NCBI RefSeq assembly: GCF_001628715.1
Contig: NZ_CP011120.1
Coordinates: forward strand, 2,015,501 to 2,079,500
Source of the DNA: Acetobacter oryzifermentans
Lineage (GTDB): Bacteria; Pseudomonadota; Alphaproteobacteria; Acetobacterales; Acetobacteraceae
Length of the DNA stretch: 64,000 nucleotides
Direction: 5' to 3'
Below, piece after piece: positions 8,956 through 54,837 of the stretch. Every line of letters starts with the position of its first letter. The stretch's first letter is position 1. Position numbers and translations under genes: made by a program. The notes under the pieces were generated by a model that worked only from the letters and a program-made list of their open reading frames with translations, did not search any database and was not told the DNA's origin.

Positions 8956-10419
8956 CTACTCCCGGCTATACAAATCCTGCACACGCACAATATCGTCCTC
9001 CCCCAGATAGGGGCCAGACTGCACTTCTATCAGCGTAAGGGGGATACGGCCGGGGTTTTCAAGGCGGTGCAACATACCCAGCGGCAAGTAAACGCTTTCA
9101 TTTTCCCGTACGAGAATTTCCTCATCTCCTCGGGTTACAAGAGCTGTGCCTTCCACCACCACCCAGTGCTCCGAGCGATGGAAATGCTTTTGCAAGGAAA
9201 GTTTCTGCGCCGGGTTCACCACAATACGCTTAACCTGAAAACGATCCCCTTGGGTAAGACCCTCGTAAAACCCCCACGGCCTATATGTGCGCGCATGGTG
9301 CGTTGCCTCTGTGCGGCCTTCTGATTTCAGACGCTCAACAATGTTTTTAACATCCTGCGCCCGATCCTTCCGGGCAACCATAACGGCATCCTGCGTTACC
9401 ACAATGGTCAGATTTTCAACACCAAGCGCAACGGTTAGGGTGCCATCTGTACGGATGTAGGAATCATGCACATCCTCCAGCATCACATTGCCATAAACTG
9501 CGTTGGCGTTTTTGTCTTTCGTGCTGAGTTCCCACAGGGAATCCCAGCTTCCGATATCGGACCACCCAAAATCGGCGGGCACCACAGCCGCTTTATCCGT
9601 GCGTTCCGCAACTGCATAATCCACTGAAATATCAGGAGATTTTTTAAAACTTTCCACGTCCAGACGTTCAAAATCCATATCTGTCTGGCGTTTTTCTACA
9701 GCTTGGCGCACGCATTCGTATAATTCGGGTTCGTATTTTTGAAGCTCATGCAAAAACGTGCACGCACGGGCAACAAACATGCCCGAATTCCACAAATACT
9801 TGCCACTCTCTAAAAAATGGTGCGCTGTTTGCGCATCCGGCTTTTCAACAAACCGAGCTACACGGCACACGCCAGAAAGGCCGGAAAGAGGCGCTCCTTC
9901 CTCTATATATCCATACCCTGTTTCCGGACGGGAGGGCTTCATGCCAAACGTGACGACATATCCGGCTTGGGCTGCCTGAACAGCACTTTCCAGCGCCTTA
10001 TACAAACACTGCGTATCCGTTATAGCGGCATCTGCCGCCATAACCCACAACACGGCATTCGGGTCTTTTTCCGCTGCCAAAAAAGCAGCCGCCGCAATGG
10101 CTGGGGCAGAATTACGGCCAACAGGTTCTAGCACAATACGAGCATCTTGCACGCCCACATCCCGCAGTTGTTCTGCTATAATAAAACGGTGCTCGGCATT
10201 GCAGATCACAACCGGCCCGCACAATTTGGCGGCTACGCCACGCAGAGCTGTTTCCTGTAACAAGGTTTTTTCTGTCAGCAATGGCCAAAACTGTTTGGGA
10301 TAACTTCCGCGAGAAACTGGCCACAGACGGCTGCCTGAACCACCAGAAAGAATAACAGGCACAACCTCCTGCCCATTGGCTACATGCACAGAAGTGGCTG
10401 TTTCTTTCTTAGCGGACAT
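8956..10419 (-). CDS. manC: Mannose-1-phosphate guanylyltransferase / mannose-6-phosphate isomerase
   Basis: A bifunctional type II enzyme giving GDP-mannose for exopolysaccharide and glycan synthesis. The N-terminal nucleotidyltransferase shows the signature GGSGSRLWPVSR and PKQF, then VEKP. The C-terminal cupin isomerase domain shows RPWGFYEGL, QKHFHRSEHW and LPLGMLHRLENPG. I chose the ATG at 10419 (488 aa), with GGAT about seven bases upstream. An ATG at 10431 and a TTG at 10455 are in frame but lack a ribosome site. The name xanB is also used for such genes. It is divergent from metZ. Confidence 0.9.
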   Translation of the reverse strand: MSAKKETATSVHVANGQEVVPVILSGGSGSRLWPVSRGSYPKQFWPLLTEKTLLQETALRGVAAKLCGPVVICNAEHRFIIAEQLRDVGVQDARIVLEPVGRNSAPAIAAAAFLAAEKDPNAVLWVMAADAAITDTQCLYKALESAVQAAQAGYVVTFGMKPSRPETGYGYIEEGAPLSGLSGVCRVARFVEKPDAQTAHHFLESGKYLWNSGMFVARACTFLHELQKYEPELYECVRQAVEKRQTDMDFERLDVESFKKSPDISVDYAVAERTDKAAVVPADFGWSDIGSWDSLWELSTKDKNANAVYGNVMLEDVHDSYIRTDGTLTVALGVENLTIVVTQDAVMVARKDRAQDVKNIVERLKSEGRTEATHHARTYRPWGFYEGLTQGDRFQVKRIVVNPAQKLSLQKHFHRSEHWVVVEGTALVTRGDEEILVRENESVYLPLGMLHRLENPGRIPLTLIEVQSGPYLGEDDIVRVQDLYSRE

Positions 10420-10556
10420 GCATAAATCCATCAGATTTTTGAAATATTCGTCCAAGTTAAATCACCGCAAGCCTGTTTTGTGAAGGCTGCATGCACAGAA
10501 CTTGACGATAGCGGATATCCGGGCTTACCCTGCTTGCCAGCAAGGTGTTGAGCCCT

Positions 10557-10613
10557 GCCCTCGTGATTTGTAAGGCCGGCTTGCGGCGAGGTAAAAGAAA
10601 CGCGCTAAAGAGG
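10557..10613 (+). promoter_or_regulatory. SAM-II (SAM-alpha) riboswitch upstream of metZ
   Basis: The stretch has the family's conserved elements in order: P1 arm CCTCG (10559-10563), TGATTTG in loop 1, GGCCGGCTTGC, the closing P1 arm CGAGG (10587-10591), an A-rich spacer, and CGCTAAAG (10603-10610) that forms the pseudoknot. In this class S-adenosylmethionine binding hides the ribosome site to shut off methionine genes, and the downstream gene here makes homocysteine. Oddly the end of the element lies about 130 bases before the metZ ATG. Confidence 0.85.
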
Positions 10614-10741
10614 CTCTGACACGGCATTTAGCCGGCTGTCATGGTTTCCACGGTCAATTTAAGAGATTGAGCTGCTTTGGCAGGCACATATGGGCCTGTC
10701 TGCTGCTTGGTCTGACACGCCAGAACCGGATACAAAGACCC

Positions 10742-11950
10742 ATGAGTGACAACAAGATTGCATTTTCTGAAGCGTGGCGCCCCGCAACCCGTCAGCTCCA
10801 TGCTGGTGTGGAACGCACGGAATATGGTGAAACCAGTGAAGCCGTGTTTCTGACCTCCGGCTTTGTTTACGATAATGCCGAACAAGCTGCCCGCACCTTC
10901 CGTGGTGAGGAAGACCACTATCAGTATAGCCGCTTTGGCAACCCTACAGTTGCAGCTTTGGAACGCCGGCTGGCAGATCTGGAAGGCGCAGAAGCCTGCG
11001 TAGCAACGGCTACTGGCATGGGTGCTGTATCCTCCGCCCTGCTAAGCCACGTTAAAGCCGGGGACCGAGTGGTAGCTTCTCGCGCACTGTTTGGCTCCTG
11101 CCACTGGATTGTTGCCAACCTTCTGCCCCGTTATGGCGTAGAAACCGTTTTTGTAGATGGCTGTAATCTGGACGAATGGGCAAAGGCACTTTCCAAGCCC
11201 ACCGCCGCCGTACTGCTGGAAAGCCCATCCAACCCCATGCTTGATATTCTGGATATCCAAGCCATTTCAGATCTCGCCCACAAGGCAGGCGCGATTGTGG
11301 TGGTGGATAACGTGTTTGCTTCCCCTGTTTTCCAAAAGCCTCTCCAGTTGGGCGCGGATGTTGTTGTCTATTCCTGCACCAAGCATATTGATGGCCAAGG
11401 CCGCGTGCTCGGCGGTGCCGTGCTTGGCCGGAAAGACTGGATTACAGAAACACTTCAGCCTTTTACCCGTAATACGGGCAACGCGCTTTCTCCTTTCAAC
11501 GCATGGGTCATGCTCAAGGGGCTGGAAACACTTTCCCTGCGCGTCAACGCCATGGCAGCCAATGCCGCAGCCGTTGCTGATTATCTGGCATCTGCCCCCG
11601 GTATTGTAAGCGTGCGCTATCCGGGCCGGGCCGATCATCCGCAGTATGAACTGGCTAAACGCCAGATGAGCGGCAGCGGAAGCCTGATTGCCTTTGAAGT
11701 AAAGGGCGGCCAGAAAGGCGCGTTTGCGTTCATGGATGCCTTGAAGCTGATTGCCATTTCCAACAATCTTGGAGATGCACGCTCTCTGGTCACACACCCT
11801 GCCACAACCACACATTCCAAAGTGGGTGCAGAAGACCGCGCAGTGTTGGGCATTACGGATGGCGCCATTCGCTTTTCCGTTGGGCTGGAAGACAGCGCAG
11901 ATCTGATAGATGATCTCGCCCGCGGTGTTGCTGCCCTTCAGGCTCTTTAA
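10742..11950 (+). CDS. metZ: O-succinylhomoserine sulfhydrylase
   Basis: A PLP enzyme of the Cys/Met metabolism family that joins sulfide to O-succinyl- (or O-acetyl-) homoserine to give homocysteine. Seen are the YSRFGNPT phosphate/substrate motif, ESPSNP, and the PLP-lysine segment SCTKHIDGQGR. I use the ATG at 10742 (402 aa), whose product begins MSDNKIAF. The MetZ assignment over MetB, MetC or MetY rests on overall sequence character and the SAM-II element upstream. The substrate ester is not provable from sequence. Confidence 0.87.
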   Translation: MSDNKIAFSEAWRPATRQLHAGVERTEYGETSEAVFLTSGFVYDNAEQAARTFRGEEDHYQYSRFGNPTVAALERRLADLEGAEACVATATGMGAVSSALLSHVKAGDRVVASRALFGSCHWIVANLLPRYGVETVFVDGCNLDEWAKALSKPTAAVLLESPSNPMLDILDIQAISDLAHKAGAIVVVDNVFASPVFQKPLQLGADVVVYSCTKHIDGQGRVLGGAVLGRKDWITETLQPFTRNTGNALSPFNAWVMLKGLETLSLRVNAMAANAAAVADYLASAPGIVSVRYPGRADHPQYELAKRQMSGSGSLIAFEVKGGQKGAFAFMDALKLIAISNNLGDARSLVTHPATTTHSKVGAEDRAVLGITDGAIRFSVGLEDSADLIDDLARGVAALQAL

Positions 11951-43513: not shown

Positions 43514-46500
43514 TTAAGCAAAGTTCTTTGTATTATCAGCCAGTTTTTCATTACCCAGAACATAATATCCGGCGGCCCGGATTGTTATAGACAGCAGTCC
43601 CATGTGATGGCTGCTCAGGAGATCCCCCAAAGGCAACAAGGCATTTCCGTTTGTCCATGCACAATCTGTCCAATCGGTCTCATGCCAGCCTTCAGGCTTA
43701 TCCTGCATCAGATGCGCTGCAATGTCATGCTGCTGTCCGGCTGTTGCAAGATGCACATCCGCAACGGCAACACCCATGTCACGCCGATCATCCACAAATG
43801 GCCCAATCACATCAGATGGGCGGCTGGCGCGTGAGACAATACGCACAAAGCGTGTGCCAGAACGTAGCATGAAGCTATAACGCTGCCCATTGCGCCTTAC
43901 GGCACGCACAACAGCACCTTTATCTGTTACCAGATGCAGGTCGGGCTCATCTGTCAGAACCTGCGATGCTGTAGCCACTGGCTGCCCGCCGACACTTGCA
44001 GCCCGCTCCGCCAGCTTGCAGAACAAAGGTTCCACAAAAGCACGGTCAACACACAGATCTACTGCGGCATCATCTTCCCAGCTTTTGATTTTTCCACCCA
44101 AGCTCATGACAGAACCAGCCTGACGGAACGCACGGCGGTTACCTGTATCCAGATAACTTTCTGTCAGCATGCCATCTGCTGTAATCACAGAGTGCTCTTC
44201 TGTTTCCACATGGTAGTAATCGTAAGAGGTGATGGATTTATCGTAAAAAATGGAAGATCCATTCACCAGCATGCGCACAGGCACAAACCTGCCTTCAAAG
44301 AACAGGCAATGTTCAGATGTAATCAGCATATCCTTGTAAGGCACACCATCTGCAATGGCATTCTTAAGGATACGCACAGGGTAACCTGCCTCATCATCCG
44401 GCAATCCTGCGCGCACAGTGGCATGCGCCTTACCGACCCATGTCACTTTACGAACAGTGCTTTGTCCATCTGCAAATGTCAGAACATCATCACCCAGTTG
44501 CAGTGTTTCAACAGCAACATCACCACATGGTGTGCGGATCATGGAGCCAGGCAAAAAACAGACTTCATAAACAGCATTGCCATCTGCATCAGAAGAAAGT
44601 GCATACCCATACTGGCTGACATCATCAATGTACAGCGTGACAGACCCACCCTCGTTAAACGACAAGGTGACGTAGTTGCCATCTGCTGAATAACTGGTGG
44701 ACGTAATATCGGTTGCCTTAACCCCGGCAAGCACAATCCCGTCCGAGTTTCCCGCAGAAGCTCCATCAAAACCTGTCACTTCTGTCGTAACGGTTGTGGC
44801 GGAAGATGTCTCAACACCCTCCAAAGTCAGCCCCGTATTGGTGCTGCCTTCCAGATCAACAATGCCACCTGCCCCGGCCCATATGGTGGCTTTGCCGCCG
44901 TTTTGCAGAACCTCCGTACCACTCAGCACAGCACTGCTCTGCACGTTCAACTGGCCACCACTGGCAACATTGACATCTGCCGCAGATCCACCAGAACTGA
45001 CATCCACAGTCCCGCCAGACACATTGGCGCCATTCAGGCTACCCTGTGAGAAAACGTTGAGCGTGCCACCACGTCCTACGGTTTCATTGTGTGCTGTAGC
45101 ACCTGCCTCAACATCTTCAAGGCCGCCATTGTTAACCGTTGTGCTGGTAGTGACGCCACCGCTTTGAACAAATTCGATACCACCAGAATTCACAACGGCA
45201 CTCACAGCCGAGCCGTTAATGTAGCCAAAGCCATTGGCGTTATACGTTGTATGGTTTGCGACCCCACCAGCACTCACAACTTCATGCCCGTGGCTTGCAA
45301 CAATCATGTCACTGTCCTGGCCGCCGGACATCACACGTTCTTCACCCAAATTGGTAATGGTGCCCGATACGGCACTCCCGGCATTATTCTGCCGACCCGT
45401 CTCAATGGTGAAATTGCTGACAACACCGCCCTGAGCCACGTTTTCTACGCCAGAGCGCTCAATCAGAATATTGGAGCCACTACCGCCAGACTGAATATCC
45501 GCGCTGCCGCCACTTGCAATGGTGACACCGCTTTCATACCCGCCAGAGAGTACGGATACCGTTGCGCCCGCGCTGAGTATGCCGCCACTCAAGCTGCCAC
45601 CACTCAGGATGGTTTGACCGCCTATGATCCCAGACGCATCAACAACAACAGTGCCTTGGGAATGAACAGTCTGATTAAGCGCTGTGCCACCAGCTCCTAC
45701 AGTTTCAAGGCCACCGGCGTTCACGGTTGTTGCAGATGCAATGCCACCAGATGCCGCCTGAAGCTGACCGCCATCCAGGATGGTTCCAGAGGTCACGCCT
45801 TTTGTTGCTACCAACTGAAGACCACCAGCAGAAATGGTTGCAGCTTCACTCAGACCATTCAGAACAGCGTCTTCACCACCGCTATTCACAGTGTTGTTGT
45901 ATGCTGAACCGTTTGTATATTCTACAATGGCGCCAGCGTTATTCACGACCGCATCATGGGATACGCCGCCATCAATATACGCGGCATAAATACCTTGGGC
46001 ATTCACAGTCATGGCAGACACCACGCCGTTGCTCTGCACGGTAATACCAGCATCATTCAAGGTTACGCCAGATGCCAGGCCACCACCATTCACCACCAGA
46101 TGATCGTGATAGACCGTCACATCATCCGCAACGCCGCCTGAATTGACAATAACATCGTGAACTTCACCACCTGTTGCAGCCTGCGCGCTGTTATCCGCCG
46201 CACCAGAAACATTTACACCAGAAACATACCCTTTACTGCCAACAACAAGCGTACCTTCCTTGTCCCCAGTAATCTTAATATCCGTCGCAAAAGCACCATC
46301 TGAAACTTGCAGACTTCCGCCTGCTGTCATTGTGACGTCTGTGAGGGTGGCAGACTGAACCGCACCGATAGATGCACCGGAATTTACCGTAACAGAAGAA
46401 CCTGACCCTCCCATAAAAAGAACATTGGCACCCGTATCTGCTGTTAAAGCGGATACAGCACCACCGTCAGTTTCATATGTAGCGCCGTTCTGGACAGTTA

Positions 46501-46858
46501 CGTCCTGCACATTACCTGCATAGCTTGCGGCATGCCCCTTACTTTCTATAGTAAGGTTTGTAATTGTTGCTGTATTTTCTAGATTTCCACCACTTTGAAC
46601 CGTTACGCTGTTCAGGCTTCCCCCCGCATTCTCCAAGAGGCCACCTTCTTCCACAACAGCACTTTGCATTGTGGACAGATTCTGCACTTCCCCCTGATCC
46701 GTCACACTGGATATGTTGCCAAGATTTGTAACTGAACCCGCACTTTGAACGGTCAGACCTACAATAGTATCCATTACTGTAAGTGATTGACCGCTCGTCA
46801 CAACAACGTTGGAAGAAGTATTATTATCTTCAGACACAAATATACCCTCTCTAGACAC
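43514..46858 (-). CDS. Strand-loop-strand (AIDA-type) repeat protein with Hint domain, paralogue 1
   Basis: 1114 aa. Residues about 15-690 are tandem units of about 19-20 aa of the type GGxASxxTVNSGGxxxVxxGG, the AIDA-I strand-loop-strand repeat that autotransporter heptosyltransferases modify. At Cys767 (VCFLPGSMI) a Hint (hedgehog/intein) module begins, with the block-B Thr847 and His850 (LITSEHC). A further conserved region of about 200 aa (SRASRPSDVIGPFVDDRR, TDWTDCAWTNG) ends the chain. There is no signal peptide and no autotransporter barrel. The last about 348 aa are nearly the same as in the two paralogues at 49.3 and 51.4 kb. Probably a surface or secreted, self-processing protein; that is inference. 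Confidence 0.8.
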   Translation of the reverse strand: MSREGIFVSEDNNTSSNVVVTSGQSLTVMDTIVGLTVQSAGSVTNLGNISSVTDQGEVQNLSTMQSAVVEEGGLLENAGGSLNSVTVQSGGNLENTATITNLTIESKGHAASYAGNVQDVTVQNGATYETDGGAVSALTADTGANVLFMGGSGSSVTVNSGASIGAVQSATLTDVTMTAGGSLQVSDGAFATDIKITGDKEGTLVVGSKGYVSGVNVSGAADNSAQAATGGEVHDVIVNSGGVADDVTVYHDHLVVNGGGLASGVTLNDAGITVQSNGVVSAMTVNAQGIYAAYIDGGVSHDAVVNNAGAIVEYTNGSAYNNTVNSGGEDAVLNGLSEAATISAGGLQLVATKGVTSGTILDGGQLQAASGGIASATTVNAGGLETVGAGGTALNQTVHSQGTVVVDASGIIGGQTILSGGSLSGGILSAGATVSVLSGGYESGVTIASGGSADIQSGGSGSNILIERSGVENVAQGGVVSNFTIETGRQNNAGSAVSGTITNLGEERVMSGGQDSDMIVASHGHEVVSAGGVANHTTYNANGFGYINGSAVSAVVNSGGIEFVQSGGVTTSTTVNNGGLEDVEAGATAHNETVGRGGTLNVFSQGSLNGANVSGGTVDVSSGGSAADVNVASGGQLNVQSSAVLSGTEVLQNGGKATIWAGAGGIVDLEGSTNTGLTLEGVETSSATTVTTEVTGFDGASAGNSDGIVLAGVKATDITSTSYSADGNYVTLSFNEGGSVTLYIDDVSQYGYALSSDADGNAVYEVCFLPGSMIRTPCGDVAVETLQLGDDVLTFADGQSTVRKVTWVGKAHATVRAGLPDDEAGYPVRILKNAIADGVPYKDMLITSEHCLFFEGRFVPVRMLVNGSSIFYDKSITSYDYYHVETEEHSVITADGMLTESYLDTGNRRAFRQAGSVMSLGGKIKSWEDDAAVDLCVDRAFVEPLFCKLAERAASVGGQPVATASQVLTDEPDLHLVTDKGAVVRAVRRNGQRYSFMLRSGTRFVRIVSRASRPSDVIGPFVDDRRDMGVAVADVHLATAGQQHDIAAHLMQDKPEGWHETDWTDCAWTNGNALLPLGDLLSSHHMGLLSITIRAAGYYVLGNEKLADNTKNFA

Positions 46859-47144
46859 TTCATATCTAAATGAATGTTATTCATACATTAACTAAAATGA
46901 TACAGCACATTTTTTAGATTATTACCAACATCATTTCGACATCTCTGATCGTTTGTTCTGCCGAAACTGGACATATACATTTAAATTGATGCGATCTATT
47001 CGTGCGCACGATCACGCCATCATCCCTGAAAGCACTCATACGAAGCTCTTTTGACTGCTCGTTGTCCGCTCACTGGCCCTCCTTTTGCCACGCGAGCTCT
47101 ACGCTATCTCACTGGAAAGCAAAGCGGGGTTCCATCGGTGCTTA
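46859..47144. other. Intergenic region upstream of paralogue 1
   Basis: About 290 bases. AT-rich up to 47000, where the promoter of the 1114-aa gene must lie. The part 47000-47144 looks like decayed insertion-sequence DNA with no open frame of note. Confidence 0.4.
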
Positions 47145-47321
47145 CGGATCACACGGTGGACGCCCACCTTATACTTTTGTCTGAAATAGGTCAGTGCCTT
47201 GTTCAGATCCGGACGGAACGCCTTAAAATCCACAGTCCGAGAAAACGCTTCAAGTTGGTCACCAATCTCGCCCAGCCGAGCAAGCCGCTCTATCAACATC
47301 AAAGAAACCAGGCTGCCTCAT
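47145..47321 (-). pseudogene. IS5-like (IS1031-type) transposase remnant
   Basis: The N-terminal part of an IS5-family transposase is readable on the minus strand in pieces: MRQPGFFDVD from 47321, then after a one-base shift ERLARLGEIGDQLEAFSR and VDFKAFRPDLNKALTY, then after another shift GGRPPCDP. A stop follows. The DDE catalytic part and terminal repeats are missing. It sits between paralogue 1 and the heptosyltransferase pseudogene. Confidence 0.65.
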
Positions 47322-47547
47322 GAGCCACCCCTCCAGTCATGACACAAGAGAAGGAATCATAGAGAGAGACCCAAAACCAGAGGCTTTTTCGAACTATCCA
47401 ACTGATACATGATAGTTTCCTTCACTGACATTCAACTCCTCAGCATCCTTACAGAATCATAAGGAACCTTACACACCACCAGTTCTCAGTGAAAATCACC
47501 AAATAGGTTTTCTAATTTATATAGGCTGTAGCAAACAATGACTGGTA
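47322..47547. other. Non-coding stretch next to the IS remnant
   Basis: About 226 bases between the transposase remnant and the end of the heptosyltransferase pseudogene. I see no gene, hairpin or recognisable IS end. Confidence 0.4.
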
Positions 47548-48837
47548 TTATGACAGCGCATGAATGGCTGCACTAATTTTAGCGATGACCTGCTGTGACG
47601 TAATCAGGCGTGTACACTCAAACTGACGTGGTGTATTGGCATGACGAGGGCACCAGAGAAAATCATGATGATCAAAGCGTTCTCGCTCATCATTCCAACA
47701 GGAATTACATGTATGCCAATTGATATTACGGTAAGGAGTATAAAACTCATTGATAGGATGAGTAAAGCCGGAGATCATGACCACAGGCGTACCCGCAGCC
47801 CACGCTAGCCACGCAAGACCTGAACTGAGGCCGATGAAGAACTCAGCATGTCGTAACCAACGTGCACGTTCTGTTAAGGGGCGATTGCCTGTTTGATCCT
47901 CTGCCCCATAAGGAATATGATTCCAGACAATAGCTGTGCCATGTACAGGTCTTTGATCAATACAGATAACCCGGTAGCCCTGCTTTTTAAGATAGGCAAC
48001 AATCTCCATCCATCCAGTGGGATTGTTCCAGTATTTACACTGAGTGCTGGCCTGCACAGCAATACAGACATATTTTTCGGCTATCAGGCGTGTTTCATCA
48101 GACAAAGCAAGTTTGGGTGCTTCTTCCGCAGGATCAACACCTAGAATATACGCGGCAGTGCGATGAAGACCCACCAACCGAAAATCGGTTGGTTGAAAAA
48201 CATTTTCTTTATCATCAAAAAATAACCCCATGCAGTACATTGCATAACTGTCTGCCAGTATGTCTTGTTCCTAAGCTATTTCTGGGGACATAAGTGTTAA
48301 TTCTGGATATGCATCTTTCAGCACAGGAATAATCAAAGCAGAGAGAATGCAGGTTACATTTGCCTGATGGATATGCGCAAAGCGTGCTGCGTAGGGAAAC
48401 CATGCAAGCGTATCGCCCAAAGTACCGACAGGAAATTGAATGACAACTTTTTTGTTTTTCAAATTCAATTCATGCTGGAAAACAATGCGGGCTTCTTTTT
48501 GAGGTAAAATATCTTCAACAATAATACCAAAGCGAACGTAAAAGCGTTTGGCAGAGTGTACGGTAGCGTCCGTATTTTCATTCTGGAACAGAATATTCCC
48601 TGTATCCAGATCACGTCATGTAATCCGCCATTTTCCTTCTGTACGTGCAGGCAGAACAATACGGGCACCCTGATTGAAATCAAACAAAATTCCATCAGGC
48701 CCATGTAAAATTGGGAAAGCAGAAGGGTTGATGTAAGGAGATTTGACCGAAGCCGAATGGTTTGATGAAGCTTCGGTAATACCATCTGCAGAAGACGTAG
48801 AAATTGTGGTTTCTGAATTTGAAAAAACTTCGGTCAT
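47548..48837 (-). pseudogene. Autotransporter strand-loop-strand O-heptosyltransferase, broken by two in-frame stops
   Basis: One frame of 430 codons runs from the ATG at 48837 to 47548, with only two stop codons inside: TGA at 48616-48618 (after GKWRIT, before RDLDTGN) and TAG at 48271-48273 (after MSPEIA). No frameshift is present. Family features are clear: HGPDGILFDFNQGAR and VQFPVGTLGDTLAWF-type QFPVGTLGDTLAWFPYAARF, then GLFFDD, VGLHRTAAYILGVDP, and the iron-finger cysteines CNSC, WCP and FEC near the end. Intact enzymes use ADP-heptose to glycosylate Ser in AIDA-type repeats in the cytoplasm, which are the repeats encoded on both sides. It follows the small NPDVA-repeat gene by 30 bases. 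Confidence 0.88.
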
Positions 48838-48867
48838 GAAACAATCAGTCCAAATATTTAAGAAAAA

Positions 48868-49200
48868 TTATGGAGCCTGAAATTTACGCCCTTCATGGTA
48901 ACCATAGAAAACATAATGGAGTAAAGGCCCTAATGGAAAAGATGCAATATCTGGATTCAAGCGCAAATAAGTTTCTGTATCAAAATCAGGGTTAGGATTT
49001 CTTTTTTCGTGTGCACCAAAATCCATGAAATGAACAAGAGGATCAATCCCAGATTCTGCAACATCGGGATTTACTAAAAGATACCATTCACCATCAAAAT
49101 AGATGGGAAATGTCTTTTCCTGGGAAGGAACTATTTTTTTCATCCGGACTGTTGGGGTGCGAGGATTACGTGATTCCAGATTTGCTGTTTTACGAAGCAT
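48868..49200 (-). CDS. Small protein with two NPDVA/HY-GxxEGR repeats
   Basis: 110 aa. Two imperfect repeats are seen: WYLLVNPDVAESGIDPL-VHF-MDFGAHEKR and YLRLNPDIASFPLGPL-LHY-VFYGYHEGR (each about 30 aa). This short helical unit occurs in proteins linked to glycosyltransferases and surface glycans. It lacks a signal peptide. Being directly upstream of the heptosyltransferase gene on the same strand, it may be its partner or a target-recognition piece; this is inference. Confidence 0.65.
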   Translation of the reverse strand: MLRKTANLESRNPRTPTVRMKKIVPSQEKTFPIYFDGEWYLLVNPDVAESGIDPLVHFMDFGAHEKRNPNPDFDTETYLRLNPDIASFPLGPLLHYVFYGYHEGRKFQAP

Positions 49201-49221
49201 AGCTGTTCCATCAAGATCATA

Positions 49222-49263
49222 AAAAATCTCTCCCTTAATACTAACGATAAGGGAGAGATTTTT
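49222..49263 (-). terminator. Terminator after paralogue 2
   Basis: A perfect 16-base stem (49222-49237 with 49248-49263, core CTCTCCCTTA/TAAGGGAGAG) flanked by A- and T-runs. It begins 5 bases after the stop codon of the 656-aa gene on the minus strand. Confidence 0.9.
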
Positions 49264-49268
49264 AATTT

Positions 49269-51239
49269 TTAAGCAGATTTTGTTTTTATACGTGTCGTTT
49301 TCTGATCATTCACAACATAAGGGCCTGCGGCACGGATGATCATGGAGAGTATCCCCATTTTCCCATGTGACAGATGATCCCCTAATGGCAGTTCGGCATT
49401 GCCATTTGTCCATGCGCAATCTGCCCAATCGGTCTCATGCCAACCTTCTGGCTTCTCGGCCTGAAGGTGAGAGGTGATGTTGAATTGCTGTTTAGCACAC
49501 ATCAGATGCACCTCGGAGACTGCGACCCCCATATGGCGTCGATCATCCACAAACGGACCAATCACATCAGATGGGCGGCTGGCGCGTGAGACAATACGCA
49601 CAGACTGCGTATCAGGCGGCAGCATGAAACTATACTGATGCGCCGTCTTGCGCATCGAACGCACAGTAGCTCCTGTATCCGTTACGAGATGCAGATCTGA
49701 ATCATCCGTGAATTCCATCGTTTCTACCGGCATCTGTGCGCCAACCACACTGTTTTCACGCCATTCCAGTGCTCGAAATAGTGGCTCCACAAAGGAACGA
49801 TCAACACAGAGTGGCGCACCGGCATCATGTTCCCATGTCCGAGGCTTTCCACCCAGCATGATAACGGAACCTTCCTGACGGAAAGAAGAGCGGTTCCCGG
49901 TATCCAGATAGCTTTCGGTCAGCATGCCATCTGCCCGGATAACAGAATGCTGCTCTGTTTCTACATGGTAATAATCGTAGGAGGTAATGGATTTGTCATA
50001 GAAAATGGACACGCCATTCACCAGCATACGTACGGGCACAAACCGATCTTTAAAAAACAAGCAGTGCTCGGCAGTAATCAGCATGTCCTTGTAAGGCACA
50101 CCATCGGCAATGGCGTCTTTCAGGACACGAACAGGATATCCCGCCTCATCATCAGAACGTTCAGGACGGACGGTTGTATGTGCCTTGCCTGCCCAGATAA
50201 TAGAACGTGTTTCTGTTTTGCCATCCACATAGACTGTGATGTTATCTCCAAAACGGATGTTTTCTACAGGCACATCACCTTGTGGGGTCTGGATCATGCT
50301 ACCCGCAAGAAAACAGGTTTCTATGGCAAGCGTGCCATCACTATTTTCAACGAGATCAAATTGTTGACCATCCACAATATCTGAAGTTTTGGGGTCAAGT
50401 GTAACACTCGCTGTTCCACCACTTCCTGTCACGGTCAGGGTATATGTGGCAGCATCGTAGCTATATTTGGCAGAGGAATCATATGTCAGAGTAGAAAAAT
50501 CAATAAGCCCACCACTTTGCAGGCCGACATTTGTAGCTGAACCGCCATTGCCAACAGTTAATGTTCCACCGCTACTAATGATACACTGGTCAATGGTTCC
50601 GTTAAGGTAACCACCTGAACTCGTGGCGGAATCATACGAATATCCTCTTTCTACCGAAACGTTGCCGCCACTTTCAATGGTAGCTGAAGCGATGCTACCA
50701 CCTGTGTTGTCTACAGTGCCGCCATTGGAGACGGTAATGTTGGAAACCTGAGACTTGGCATCAATATCAACCTCTGTTGTGTTATTGACCTGAACACCTG
50801 TAACAGTAGCGCCAGATTCAACCTTCATACTGGCACTTGTGGTCAACGTCACATTGGAAAGTGTGCCTCCTCGTAAGTCAATGCCCGCACTATTGGAGGC
50901 CGAGACAGTGTCAACTGCGCCGCCTGACTCTACGATAAGGTCAGCACTTCTACTGCCATCCAATGAAATATGAGAAGCACTCCCACCATCCAGCGCAAAG
51001 ATATTACCACCCGAGGTAACTGTGGCGCCATTGAGTGTTCCGCCACTTTGCACAACGATAGATCCGATACCACCCCCATTCTGGGTCAGAGTGGCATTTG
51101 TCAAAGAGCCTTCCACAACAACATGGTCAGCTGTGTTGTAAGATGCACCATTGACTGTTTGACCAGCGGAAATTGTTTGGGTCGCCGCAGGAAGCGGATA
51201 ATTAGACATCGTAACCGTAGCTTTCTTTGCCGCTTTCAT
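49269..51239 (-). CDS. Strand-loop-strand repeat protein with Hint domain, paralogue 2
   Basis: 656 aa, the shortest paralogue. Residues about 15-265 are AIDA-type repeats (QSGGTLNGATVTSGGN and similar). The Hint module starts at Cys309 (TCFLAGSMI) with Thr389 and His392 in LITAEHC. The shared C-terminal region follows (SRASRPSDVIGPFVDDRR). No signal peptide or barrel. The first ATG at 51239 lacks a clear ribosome site; an ATG at 51209 (MSNYPLPAAT) is also possible. A strong hairpin lies in its leader at 51293-51328. Confidence 0.78.
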   Translation of the reverse strand: MKAAKKATVTMSNYPLPAATQTISAGQTVNGASYNTADHVVVEGSLTNATLTQNGGGIGSIVVQSGGTLNGATVTSGGNIFALDGGSASHISLDGSRSADLIVESGGAVDTVSASNSAGIDLRGGTLSNVTLTTSASMKVESGATVTGVQVNNTTEVDIDAKSQVSNITVSNGGTVDNTGGSIASATIESGGNVSVERGYSYDSATSSGGYLNGTIDQCIISSGGTLTVGNGGSATNVGLQSGGLIDFSTLTYDSSAKYSYDAATYTLTVTGSGGTASVTLDPKTSDIVDGQQFDLVENSDGTLAIETCFLAGSMIQTPQGDVPVENIRFGDNITVYVDGKTETRSIIWAGKAHTTVRPERSDDEAGYPVRVLKDAIADGVPYKDMLITAEHCLFFKDRFVPVRMLVNGVSIFYDKSITSYDYYHVETEQHSVIRADGMLTESYLDTGNRSSFRQEGSVIMLGGKPRTWEHDAGAPLCVDRSFVEPLFRALEWRENSVVGAQMPVETMEFTDDSDLHLVTDTGATVRSMRKTAHQYSFMLPPDTQSVRIVSRASRPSDVIGPFVDDRRHMGVAVSEVHLMCAKQQFNITSHLQAEKPEGWHETDWADCAWTNGNAELPLGDHLSHGKMGILSMIIRAAGPYVVNDQKTTRIKTKSA

Positions 51240-51292
51240 GAAGAGCGTAAAATCGTGAAAAGAAATCCGGCTTCATGAAATATTGAGAAGAG

Positions 51293-51328
51293 ACAAATAT
51301 CCGATGTGAAAACACATCGGATATTTGT
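51293..51328. other. Perfect 16-base inverted repeat in the leader of paralogue 2
   Basis: ACAAATATCCGATGTG (51293-51308) and CACATCGGATATTTGT (51313-51328) enclose AAAA. On the minus strand the loop is TTTT. It lies after the terminator of paralogue 3 and 54 bases before the paralogue 2 start, so it may be an operator, a second terminator or an mRNA stabiliser. Confidence 0.7.
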
Positions 51329-51336
51329 AAAAAACT

Positions 51337-51358
51337 CCCTCCATCAAAAAATGGAGGG
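51337..51358 (-). terminator. Terminator after paralogue 3
   Basis: CCCTCCAT/ATGGAGGG stem (51337-51344, 51351-51358) followed on the minus strand by AGTTTTTTAC. A textbook rho-independent terminator 11 bases after the stop codon. Confidence 0.92.
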
Positions 51359-51369
51359 AAGTATTCGGA

Positions 51370-54012
51370 TTAGGCAGAACGTCTGTTTTCCAAAACAGCT
51401 TTCGTGTTCTGTTCCAGATAGGGGCCAGCAGCTCGGATATTCAGAGAAAGAATACCCATTCCGCTCTGTGTCAGTTCATCCAAGGGCAAAACAGCATCAC
51501 CATTTGTCCATGCGCAATCCGTCCAGTCTGTTGCGTGCCAACCAACTGGTTTTTCAGACTGAAGATGCGCAGTAATGTGTGTTTGCTGCTTGGCTGTCAC
51601 AAAATATACGTCAGCTACAGCAACGCCCATCATGCGGCGATCATCCACAAATGGCCCGATCACATCCGCTGGTCGGCTGGCGCGAGAGACAATACGCACA
51701 CAGGCCATGTTAGCCGGCAGCATAAAGCTGTAACGCTCACCATCATGGCGAATGGGGCGAATGATGGCCCCGCTTTCCGTGACGAGATGTAGATCTGGGT
51801 CGTTTGTCAGGTTTGACTTTGCAAGAGGAACTGAAGTCGTCTGTGTCAGACGACTAGTCCGTGCTTCCAGCTTTTGAAAAAGCGGTTCAACAAAGGACCG
51901 TTCCACTCCTAAAGGTGCACCGGCGTTCTTTTCCCAGCTTTGAACCGCACCACGTAAGGTGACAACGGTACCTGTCTGACGGAAAGAAGAACGGTTGCCT
52001 GTATCCAGATAGCTTTCTGTCAGCATGCCATCAGCCTGAATGACGGAATGCTGCTCGGTTTCCACGTGATAGTAATCGTAGGAGGTAATGGATTTGTCAT
52101 AGAAAATAGACACGCCATTCACCAGCATACGTACGGGTACAAACCGATTTTCAAAAAACAAGCAATGTTCCGCAGTAATCAGCATGTCTTTGTAAGGCAC
52201 ACCATCGGCAATGGCATCCTTCAGAACACGTACAGGATATCCGGCTTCATCATCTGGTAAGCCGGGCCGAACAACAGCATGTGATTTACCAACCCAAACA
52301 ACGGGCCGGGTCACTTCCTTGTTGTTCTTCCAGTCGAAAGCAAGGACTTCATCACCAATCTGAATATCTTCTACAGCTACATCACCTTCACTCATACGGA
52401 TCATGCTGCCAGACAGAAAACAGACTTCGTAGTAAAGACCACCATTACCATCAGAAATAATTTTGTTTCCGATTTTGTCGGCATCAGGAATATTCAGATG
52501 AAAATCAACACTATTTCCATTTTCATCTATACCAATAAAATCAATACCAGAAGATGTGGTGTTGATGTTCGTGACGCTCTTCAGATCAACGAGATCAATT
52601 TTACCGCCATTTTCCAAACCGCTAATCACGTTGGTGGGCATGGTGTTCCCACTGATGGTCAGCAGAGAACTACTGCCTGCCAGAAGGATATCACCACTAC
52701 CGGCAGCACCGTTCAGGATCAGCTGACCACCATTGCTTACCGTAGTCGTGCCAACCAGTGTACTTGCACTATCAACATCAACAATACCGCCGCTCTCAAC
52801 CGTAGATGCACTGAGCACACCACCACTGATAATATTGGCTGAACCGCTACCCAAGATGGTGGCGCTGATAACAGTGCCACCCATGTCTTTCATGACACCG
52901 CCCGACACAGTTACAACAGTGGCTGTCCCAGCGATTTTACCAGTAGAGTCTGTTTGAACATTGAACTGCCCTGCGCCAACCGTGCTGCTGGTAACAGAGC
53001 CCCCCAGCACATTCAATTGAGCCTGATTACCGTCAACAGAATTGCCTGTACCTGAGGCACCGGCCTGAATATTGATATAACCCGCAGATGCCGTAGAACT
53101 ATCTACAGAAGCTCCACTAAGAACATTTAGACTACCGCCTTGTGTTGTAATGCCAGAAGCATAACCGCCAGCTTCAACATTGGCATAATCCTGTGTCTGA
53201 TTGGCTGTATCTGTATTGCTGAGCGTACCTGAGCCTGAAATGGTGCTATTTTCAAATACACCTTTGTCGCCCACAAAAATGGTGCCGCCATTTATAGTCG
53301 CATTGTCCACCGTGCCACTGGAAAGATAAATACGTCCTACAGCCGTCCCACTGCTGCCATCCTGTACACCGCTAGCTGTTCCGCCCTTGTTAACCCACAA
53401 CTCGCCGCCTGATAGGGTGCTGTCCGTCAGCGTGCCACCCACAGCATTTAGCTGGCCGCCCTCAAAAACAGTATTACCTGTTCCGGAACCGCCAGTGGAT
53501 ACGTTAATATAACCGGACGACGCATGGGAACTTTCTACAAATCCACCACTACCGATGTTCAGACTACCACCCATTGTGGTAATTCCGGAGGCCGTGCCAC
53601 CGCTTAGGACATTAACGTAGTCCTGCGTCTGGTTGGCTGTACCTGTATTTGTGTAGTTGCCGCTTCCAAAAATATTGGAATCGCCAATCAGGCCACCGCT
53701 CCCAATTTCAACGGCACCACCATCAATACTGCCGTTTACCAGCTTTCCACCATTACTGGCATAGGCCAGAGCATAGTTGCTGATGGTATAATCTTTAACA
53801 ATTGCAGTGCCACCATCACCATGCGCGCTGATGGTGGCGACTGAAGCCACGCCGTTCCATCCTTGTGAACCAAGAGCAGTTACATAATCTACAGTGCCCC
53901 CGTTTCCAACATTCAGTGTACCACCACCATTTACTATGACATCATCTAATGATGCTTGAGCATATGGGTTACCACTAAAAACGTATGTCGTCTGGTTTAC
54001 TTGTGTCGTCAT
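51370..54012 (-). CDS. Strand-loop-strand repeat protein with Hint domain, paralogue 3
   Basis: 880 aa. Residues about 20-440 are AIDA-like repeats, including an internal duplication of about 95 aa: TANQTQDYVNVLSGG..ASGITTMGGSLN and TANQTQDYANVEAGG..ASGITTQGGSLN, each followed by GSGTGN or ASGTGN. The Hint module starts at Cys531 (VCFLSGSMI) with Thr613 and His616 in LITAEHC, then the shared C-terminal region. No signal peptide or barrel. GAGAGG lies about 12 bases before the ATG. Just upstream are the inverted repeats at 54033-54172 and, divergent, the serine recombinase gene. Confidence 0.8.
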   Translation of the reverse strand: MTTQVNQTTYVFSGNPYAQASLDDVIVNGGGTLNVGNGGTVDYVTALGSQGWNGVASVATISAHGDGGTAIVKDYTISNYALAYASNGGKLVNGSIDGGAVEIGSGGLIGDSNIFGSGNYTNTGTANQTQDYVNVLSGGTASGITTMGGSLNIGSGGFVESSHASSGYINVSTGGSGTGNTVFEGGQLNAVGGTLTDSTLSGGELWVNKGGTASGVQDGSSGTAVGRIYLSSGTVDNATINGGTIFVGDKGVFENSTISGSGTLSNTDTANQTQDYANVEAGGYASGITTQGGSLNVLSGASVDSSTASAGYINIQAGASGTGNSVDGNQAQLNVLGGSVTSSTVGAGQFNVQTDSTGKIAGTATVVTVSGGVMKDMGGTVISATILGSGSANIISGGVLSASTVESGGIVDVDSASTLVGTTTVSNGGQLILNGAAGSGDILLAGSSSLLTISGNTMPTNVISGLENGGKIDLVDLKSVTNINTTSSGIDFIGIDENGNSVDFHLNIPDADKIGNKIISDGNGGLYYEVCFLSGSMIRMSEGDVAVEDIQIGDEVLAFDWKNNKEVTRPVVWVGKSHAVVRPGLPDDEAGYPVRVLKDAIADGVPYKDMLITAEHCLFFENRFVPVRMLVNGVSIFYDKSITSYDYYHVETEQHSVIQADGMLTESYLDTGNRSSFRQTGTVVTLRGAVQSWEKNAGAPLGVERSFVEPLFQKLEARTSRLTQTTSVPLAKSNLTNDPDLHLVTESGAIIRPIRHDGERYSFMLPANMACVRIVSRASRPADVIGPFVDDRRMMGVAVADVYFVTAKQQTHITAHLQSEKPVGWHATDWTDCAWTNGDAVLPLDELTQSGMGILSLNIRAAGPYLEQNTKAVLENRRSA

Positions 54013-54032
54013 AAAATCAGACCTCTCTTAAT

Positions 54033-54172
54033 TCTTGAATTACGCAAAAAAAAGAACGTGTATTTTTTTTGTCTTGAATGTTTTTGTTGCATTAACAATA
54101 CTTGAGGTGTAGGCGTTTCTGTGACTATTTTACATGGCGAGAGTAGGAATTCTGCTCTTGCGTAATTCAAGA
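54033..54172. repeat. 15-base perfect inverted repeats around a 110-base AT-rich segment
   Basis: TCTTGAATTACGCAA (54033-54047) and TTGCGTAATTCAAGA (54158-54172) are exact inverted copies. Each arm also has its own small dyad (AATTC-TT-GAATT; CTCTTG-N7-CAAGAG), and a part copy TCTTGAAT is at 54072-54079. The enclosed segment includes a possible plus-strand promoter (TTGTCT near 54069, 17-18 bases, TTAACA/TAACAA). It stands between the 880-aa surface-protein gene and the serine recombinase gene. It may be an invertible promoter, a res site, or a pair of operators. Confidence 0.7.
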
Positions 54173-54216
54173 GTTTTACAAGAAACCTTTGAGTGTTTTT
54201 ATGTGTTTAAGATTGA

Positions 54217-54837
54217 ATGAAATCAGAGACTACACGCCGTAAAGTGGGATATGCCCGTGTCAGCACAATCGGGCAGACTCTCGAACTTCAATTAAAAACA
54301 CTCAAGGAATTTGGATGTCGCGGTATTTATCGCGAGAAGGCAAGCGGAGCCGATGCCGATCGTTCCGAATTAAGAAAACTTCTCAAAAATCTCAAACCAG
54401 GCCAGACCGTAGTCGTCACCCGTCTGGATCGTCTGGCACGTAGTACATTCGACTTGTTCTCAATTGTTAAAACTATTTCCGAACGCAAGGCTCTTTTTTA
54501 CTCTCTGGCTGAACCCTGGACTGATACCAGCACAAGTACAGGTCGGCTTATGCTTGCAGTCCTTGGTGGCTTGGCCGATGTGGAACGTGACCTGATCCGG
54601 ACACGCACCTCAGAAGGACGTGCACGCGCTCAGGCGTTAGGTAAGCGTATGGGACGCCCCACCAAAATTACCGATGCACAAAGACGCGCCATCATTGATC
54701 GCAGGCAAAGAGGAGAACCTCTAAAATCCATTGCCCTCGCCTTTGCGATAAGCGAGAGCACAGCATCACGGATAGCGCGTAGTAAAGACAGCCATCGCCA
54801 TTATGGTAGAAGGGGTGGAAAGACCCCGATAACGTAG
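54217..54837 (+). CDS. Serine recombinase (resolvase/invertase family)
   Basis: 206 aa. The catalytic serine is in GYARVST (about residue 16). Other signature parts are the arginine segment VVTRLDRLARST, and LMLAVLGGLADVERDLIRTRT with the long helix E, then GRMGRPTKIT-type KRMGRPTKIT and a C-terminal helix-turn-helix (about 165-190). Size and plan fit small resolvases and DNA invertases. No transposase gene is adjacent. The nearby inverted repeats are its natural candidate site. It ends 29 bases before tRNA-Ser. Confidence 0.88.
   Translation: MKSETTRRKVGYARVSTIGQTLELQLKTLKEFGCRGIYREKASGADADRSELRKLLKNLKPGQTVVVTRLDRLARSTFDLFSIVKTISERKALFYSLAEPWTDTSTSTGRLMLAVLGGLADVERDLIRTRTSEGRARAQALGKRMGRPTKITDAQRRAIIDRRQRGEPLKSIALAFAISESTASRIARSKDSHRHYGRRGGKTPIT

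Follow-up and report, generated by a model that had tools for sequence, protein, structure and literature searches.

A Hint-Protein Expression Site with a Probable Phase Switch and a Decayed O-Heptosyltransferase Gene in Acetobacter oryzifermentans

Introduction

AIDA-I and TibA of Escherichia coli, self-associating autotransporters paired with the O-heptosyltransferases Aah and TibC, are secreted via a C-terminal barrel. Aah recognizes a strand-loop-strand (SLS) motif, as described in PMC3835316. The locus considered here, 43514–54012 with the adjoining recombinase gene, belongs to a window of 64,000 nucleotides of Acetobacter oryzifermentans (the whole stretch of DNA analysed; assembly GCF_001628715.1, NZ_CP011120.1, positions 2,015,501–2,079,500), which lies within contig C1 (2.8 Mb) of the 3.1-Mb genome. 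As in the E. coli pairs, a gene of TIGR04414, the autotransporter SLS O-heptosyltransferase family, stands beside an SLS-repeat protein, and the two co-occur across genomes. Unlike AIDA-I and TibA, the three proteins of the locus (P0001, P0002 and P0003) were found to have neither a barrel nor a Sec-like start; a Hint domain and another C-terminal domain come after the repeats, and the local enzyme gene is a pseudogene.

The Hint domains resemble those of Hedgehog/Hog proteins and bacterial intein-like (BIL) domains in fold, Cys1, the TxxH motif, the absence of a terminal His-Asn and the presence of a further domain after Hint. In Hedgehog/Hog this place is taken by a sterol/adduct recognition region, according to PMC2362128. 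The passenger, the host and the downstream domain differ, and the present likeness is drawn from sequence and fold. With invertible promoters of the Hin/Gin class the locus shares a Gin-like enzyme, inverted repeats and the occurrence of both orientations among relatives; Mpi of Bacteroides is an example of such a promoter run by a serine invertase. The differences are that every such Hint gene is provided with a divergent recombinase of its own beside the segment, that the segment is just ~110 bp long and that its promoter is presumed.

To our knowledge, O-heptosylated repeats, Hint self-processing, an invertible DNA switch and a lipid-type polyketide operon are known only apart, and the system described here would unite them. 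No paper on these Hint proteins or on such a switch was found for Acetobacter, Acetobacteraceae or Gluconobacter in the full-text literature, judging by titles and the openings of abstracts, preprints and most subscription papers being outside its coverage. The reading favored here, and considered fairly likely, is that the window holds one expression site of phase-variable, probably type-I-exported, trans-heptosylated, barrel-less Hint proteins with Hedgehog-like processing. The site would belong to a 24-copy family built from a variable passenger, a Hint domain and a constant C-terminal domain, its products probably being at the surface or secreted. If this is true, acetic acid bacteria of vinegar, the fly gut and fermented food show large swappable sets of barrel-less proteins with flipping expression, with possible consequences for the formation of pellicles and the colonization of the gut. 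The interest rests on this setting, namely the probable phase switch, the family-wide heptosyltransferase link and the conserved polyketide-Hint operon, and not on the broken enzyme.

The Segment Ahead of P0003

A phase switch probably lies ahead of P0003 (51370–54012, minus strand, 880 aa). Head to head with this gene, just beyond 43514–54012, is the gene of a 206-aa serine recombinase (54217–54837, plus strand). In the gap, two perfect 15-bp inverted-repeat arms, 54033–54047 on the Hint side and 54158–54172 on the recombinase side, enclose a 110-bp spacer (54048–54157). The spacer is the presumed invertible segment, with a presumed promoter; inversion itself is seen at homologous plasmid loci only. 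P0003 is the first gene behind it, and the same-strand run continues with P0002, a 110-aa open reading frame (ORF) and the heptosyltransferase pseudogene. By flipping the segment, the Gin-like recombinase would turn this run on or off.

Each of the genome's seven best recombinase matches lies divergent to a Hint gene, and inverted repeats are present in all seven gaps, in one case found only after extending the region searched. The arms match within each locus, imperfectly in three, and the repeat sequence differs from locus to locus. In 200 mononucleotide shuffles, a control for the genome's own seven loci and not for the wider set given next, six loci were covered: the repeats were never equalled at five of the seven and were equalled three times at one. 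Among 43 unique recombinases of the clade (genus and plasmids, the genome's own included), 37 are accompanied by inverted repeats. A Hint gene falls within the flank for 36 of the 43, which is one too few, as L042, representing the recombinase of the window, has a 1.5-kb flank that misses P0003. Where the flank is at least 2.5 kb, a divergent Hint gene is present in 24 of 24 cases and inverted repeats in 23. The loci L028–L041 were fetched with a Hint query and are hence not independent support for the pairing.

Five locus pairs match in both flanks, and in two of these exactly the spacer is inverted between 60-bp flanks that are identical on both sides. One pair consists of Acetobacter pomorum plasmid pApBDGP5C and contig C4 of the studied genome, the other of the Acetobacter oryzoeni B6 plasmid and A. 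pomorum pSH1. These pairs directly attest inversion at homologous plasmid loci; by homology, the segment in the window may invert as well. Several observations weigh against a switch at the window or limit its reach. Within each of the remaining three flank-matched pairs the orientation does not differ, and the window's own segment was not found in the opposite orientation in any relative compared. A consensus promoter was not found in 53950–54280. The recombinase stands beside just 7 of the genome's 24 Hint genes, and a strongly related recombinase (E ≤ 1e-60) occurs in just 9 of 150 genomes of the family.

The best solved relative of the recombinase is DNA-invertase 4m6f (E 5e-32), with the gamma-delta and Tn3 resolvases after it. 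These resolvases, the many copies on plasmids and the arm spacing, which is presumably near the size of a res site, would suit another explanation, in which the recombinase and repeats are a resolvase with its res site or an operator of a mobile element, and the Hint pairing comes from shared plasmid mobility. It is regarded as improbable, since a precisely arm-bounded spacer is reversed between records with identical flanks, no recurring transposase was found beside the recombinase in the annotated records examined, and the Hint partner is constant in the clade wherever the flank permits the test. An invertible expression switch is preferred.

In L073, from a relative within the genus, the series runs recombinase fragment, inverted repeats, stop-free heptosyltransferase gene, Hint gene. 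Two divergent recombinase genes stand back to back in L103 and L139; those of L103 share one inverted-repeat segment, and the stretch fetched there has no Hint gene.

Hint Proteins and Their Predicted Processing

P0001 (43514–46858, 1114 aa) and P0002 (49269–51239, 656 aa) are encoded, like P0003, on the minus strand. The start codon of P0001 is uncertain, being either a GTG or an ATG 28 codons further in. Pfam Hint_2 scores for P0001, P0002 and P0003 are 117, 110 and 103 bits against a cut-off of 28.4 (domains at 44144–44563, 49899–50318 and 52000–52425, respectively). In each protein the domain begins at a Cys (CFLxGSMI) and is followed up to the protein end by a conserved domain of ~170–190 residues common to the three. 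The plan proposed in the initial annotation, three minus-strand genes each having a Hint module at a Cys and a common C-terminal region, is thus borne out.

The same annotation had assigned AIDA-type repeats to all three proteins, which is confirmed by profile for P0001 only. Only P0001 passes the curated SLS cut-offs, with 52.9 bits against 27 for PF16168 and 73.6 against 30 for TIGR04415 in seven stretches. The passenger of P0002 is repeat-like, yet it scores 17.1 bits with TIGR04415, under the cut-off of 30; a weak match (E 0.0014) links its residues 38–251 to 4q1q, a solved structure of the TibA passenger. The P0003 passenger is Gly/Ser/Thr-rich and looks repetitive by eye, while no repeat family was found in it at E ≤ 0.1 and a home-made SLS profile also gave no match. 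The placing of the Hint module where a barrel would be expected is supported: no autotransporter barrel was found in P0001–P0003 (at E ≤ 0.1) or in eight scanned relatives, and the full-length AIDA-I, Ag43 and BafA models match with their repeat part alone.

The genome has 24 Hint_2 genes, of which three are on contigs C3 (116 kb) and C4 (25 kb), which look like plasmids. In 23 of the 24 paralogues the same C-terminal domain comes after Hint, and the passenger differs in length and sequence. The 24th (C1:685060–689511, L021:7061–11509) has a glycosyltransferase after Hint. Across the genus Acetobacter, Hint_2 occurs in 44 of 49 genomes, with a maximum of 24 matches per genome.

Hint domains are commonly read by Cys1, the TxxH motif and a terminal His-Asn. 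Of 43 aligned domains, a similarity-thinned set excluding those before a glycosyltransferase, 42 retain Cys1, all 43 the T/S of TxxH and 42 the His of that motif, and this retention spans 26–76% identity to P0002. The domain terminates in TESY, not His-Asn. Because Cys1 and TxxH are kept and TESY stands in place of His-Asn, the domain is predicted to undergo an N-S acyl shift and release of the Hedgehog type instead of splicing. After the shift at the first Cys, water or another nucleophile would resolve the thioester, and the passenger would be freed or capped. Cleavage or attachment by Hint in these proteins is suggested on this basis.

The Hint domain could instead be structural or dead, the proteins being uncleaved adhesins with the C-terminal domain as an export or anchoring tag. 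In favor of this view, the C-terminal domain accompanies Hint_2 in 120 of 120 among the matches listed of 541 homologues, and one paralogue (C1:648192–649382) has lost both Cys1 and His. Such a view is nevertheless considered rather unlikely given the retention of the three catalytic positions in 42–43 of 43 domains over so wide a range of identity, and the agreement of the fold with solved Hint domains. In some polymorphic toxins Hint is used for effector release, and a weak PT-HINT match in P0003, under the cut-off, recalls a layout in which Hint would free a C-terminal effector. In the present proteins it is the region following Hint that is constant and the preceding one that varies, and profile scans of P0001–P0003 found no toxin family match (no search was made for an immunity partner); a toxin is hardly credible. 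Active, Hedgehog-like processing remains the reading preferred here.

In L021:7061–11509 and L071:4553–8005, a group-1 glycosyltransferase domain replaces the usual C-terminal domain after Hint. The genome's 24 Hint proteins end in Ser-Ala in 14 cases and in Ala in 20, which is a possible tail signal.

The O-Heptosyltransferase in the Window and Across Acetobacteraceae

The gene between the Hint genes had been annotated as an autotransporter heptosyltransferase; the family is correct, but the gene is a pseudogene. Read as a whole frame on the minus strand (48837–47548), it scores 614.7 bits with TIGR04414 against a curated cut-off of 200, the stops being read through by the search tool. These are a TGA at codon 74 (48616–48618) and a TAG at codon 189 (48271–48273), and the ORF 47548–48240 is a C-terminal fragment of the gene (431.5 bits). 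A second broken copy (C1:2372856–2373986) has ~98% DNA identity to that of the window, the same TGA and a different TAG, and its 5′ end is replaced by passenger sequence. The TGA, being common to both, is most simply older than the duplication.

Two stop-free copies exist, C1:161383–162555, with no Hint gene in the surrounding 20 kb, and C1:435454–436572, at the end of the polyketide operon described below. As the local enzyme is broken, any heptosylation must be in trans, and the SLS passengers would be modified by these two unbroken copies. Heptosylation of P0002 and P0003 is doubtful, since neither is SLS by profile, a point that weighs against the general reading. The glycosylated system as it had been proposed for this locus, with the local heptosyltransferase decorating three neighboring SLS-Hint proteins, is not supported. 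The enzyme family is the right one and such neighbors abut enzymes elsewhere in Acetobacteraceae; with two in-frame stops, one of them common to the second degenerate copy, and only one of three passengers a recognizable SLS array, a self-contained system of this kind is very improbable. Modification in trans is preferred.

At the family level the idea fares better. In a survey of 150 Acetobacteraceae genomes (TIGR04415 at E ≤ 0.001, TIGR04414 over its cut-off), the repeats were found in 42 genomes (40 over the cut-off) and the enzyme in 40. Both occur in 38 genomes, the repeats alone in 4, the enzyme alone in 2 and neither in 106 (Fisher p 1.5e-28, uncorrected for relatedness); among the four with repeats alone, G114 holds a sub-cut-off enzyme fragment. 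The SLS repeats thus go together with the enzyme. Hint_2 is present in 119 genomes, comprising 40 of 40 with the enzyme and 79 of 110 without it, and is itself not tied to the heptosyltransferase.

The same-strand gene abutting the enzyme was recorded at 40 loci of other genomes, mostly from the top of the match list, weaker matches being left out. It encodes a Hint protein at 10 loci, an SLS protein without Hint at 7 and a fatty-acyl-AMP ligase (FAAL) at 6; none of these was found at 17. In the family, proteins whose SLS passenger is followed by Hint instead of a barrel do stand beside heptosyltransferases; at the window locus this pairing survives in decayed form.

Export

An ad hoc hydropathy screen found no hydrophobic Sec-like start in any of the 24 Hint proteins (no signal-peptide program was run), while both window controls were positive. 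Type I export is the leading candidate route, as a peptidase-type ABC exporter with an HlyD protein stands divergent to Hint genes. In the studied genome this arrangement occurs at a paralogue locus (L014, 5571–9031 with 9668–11062) and not at the window locus. It recurs in 17 of 20 further stretches of the genus (L228–L247), with the Hint gene a near neighbor in 16. Most likely, then, Hint proteins without a Sec signal would leave the cell through this pair.

Some points weigh against this route or its generality. P0001, read from its longer start, reaches 1.72, close to the hydropathy threshold of 1.8, and 3 of the 20 exporter stretches are without a Hint gene. The HlyD of the pair is present in 20 of 49 genomes of the genus as against 44 of 49 for Hint_2, so that the exporter pair cannot serve all Hint proteins.

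The Polyketide-Hint Operon

Elsewhere on C1 (422974–436597; L015, L016), a same-strand run consists of a Hint gene (422974–425754), an AMP ligase, a polyketide synthase (PKS), a FAAL and the stop-free heptosyltransferase gene C1:435454. The synthase has 2099 aa and the domains KS-AT-DH-ER-KR-ACP. The run resembles FAAL-PKS lipid clusters (mycobacterial Pks2/FadD, compared by profile only) in combining a reducing PKS of this composition with a FAAL. It differs in including a Hint gene and an O-heptosyltransferase gene, and Pks2, the best profile of the synthase, gives 1065 of 2400 bits, far under the cut-off. A profile scan found no thioesterase match in the synthase. The domain content and the best profile suggest a product of lipid type.

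The Hint/acyl-AMP ligase/reducing PKS/FAAL/heptosyltransferase operon is recurrent (L188–L193, L197, L199–L202 and L205). Of 15 clusters located via the heptosyltransferase or via FAAL, 13 (all but G032 and G193) have a Hint gene, its product ending in the shared C-terminal domain, immediately upstream of the ligase-synthase pair, and 13 (all but G181 and G193) have one or two heptosyltransferases immediately beside the FAAL. G085 carries its enzyme-FAAL part on the opposite strand. A FAAL search in the genus alone gave nine strong matches, eight with a Hint gene and seven with the enzyme.

These two linkages allow a tentative extension, thought more probably wrong than right, in which Hint would hand the heptosylated passenger via the thioester to the lipid made by the neighboring PKS and two acyl-AMP ligases. 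The C-terminal lipid would be an anchor replacing the barrel, and the recombinase switch would select the passengers displayed. This raises the testable question of whether a bacterial Hint domain attaches a lipid as Hedgehog does.

Passenger Exchange and Minor Features

In related plasmids, a single slot contains an HU gene, the recombinase, a Hint gene and a relaxase gene. The Hint genes in it differ in length, and similarity to the query sequence ends inside the Hint gene. One plasmid (L134) matches C3:60k of the studied genome on the recombinase side, and its Hint side is 99.7% identical to C3:74k of that genome. Two parts of the window, 44876–46294 and 47548–48704, recur in L024 at 97–98% in permuted order. 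L024 (9833–13094) carries these passenger and heptosyltransferase pieces as a rearranged second copy, with their order exchanged.

At 47000–47300, in the gap separating the pseudogene from P0001, short ORF pieces resemble, by eye, the remnants of an insertion-sequence (IS) transposase. The 5′ end of P0001 may have been cut or replaced near this place. The 110-aa ORF between the pseudogene and P0002 (48868–49200, minus strand) gave no Pfam or NCBIfam match at E ≤ 0.1 and has NPDVAxxGxDPLxH-type repeats. Repeat proteins of this type adjoin Hint genes both here and at C1:574479–575606 of the same genome.
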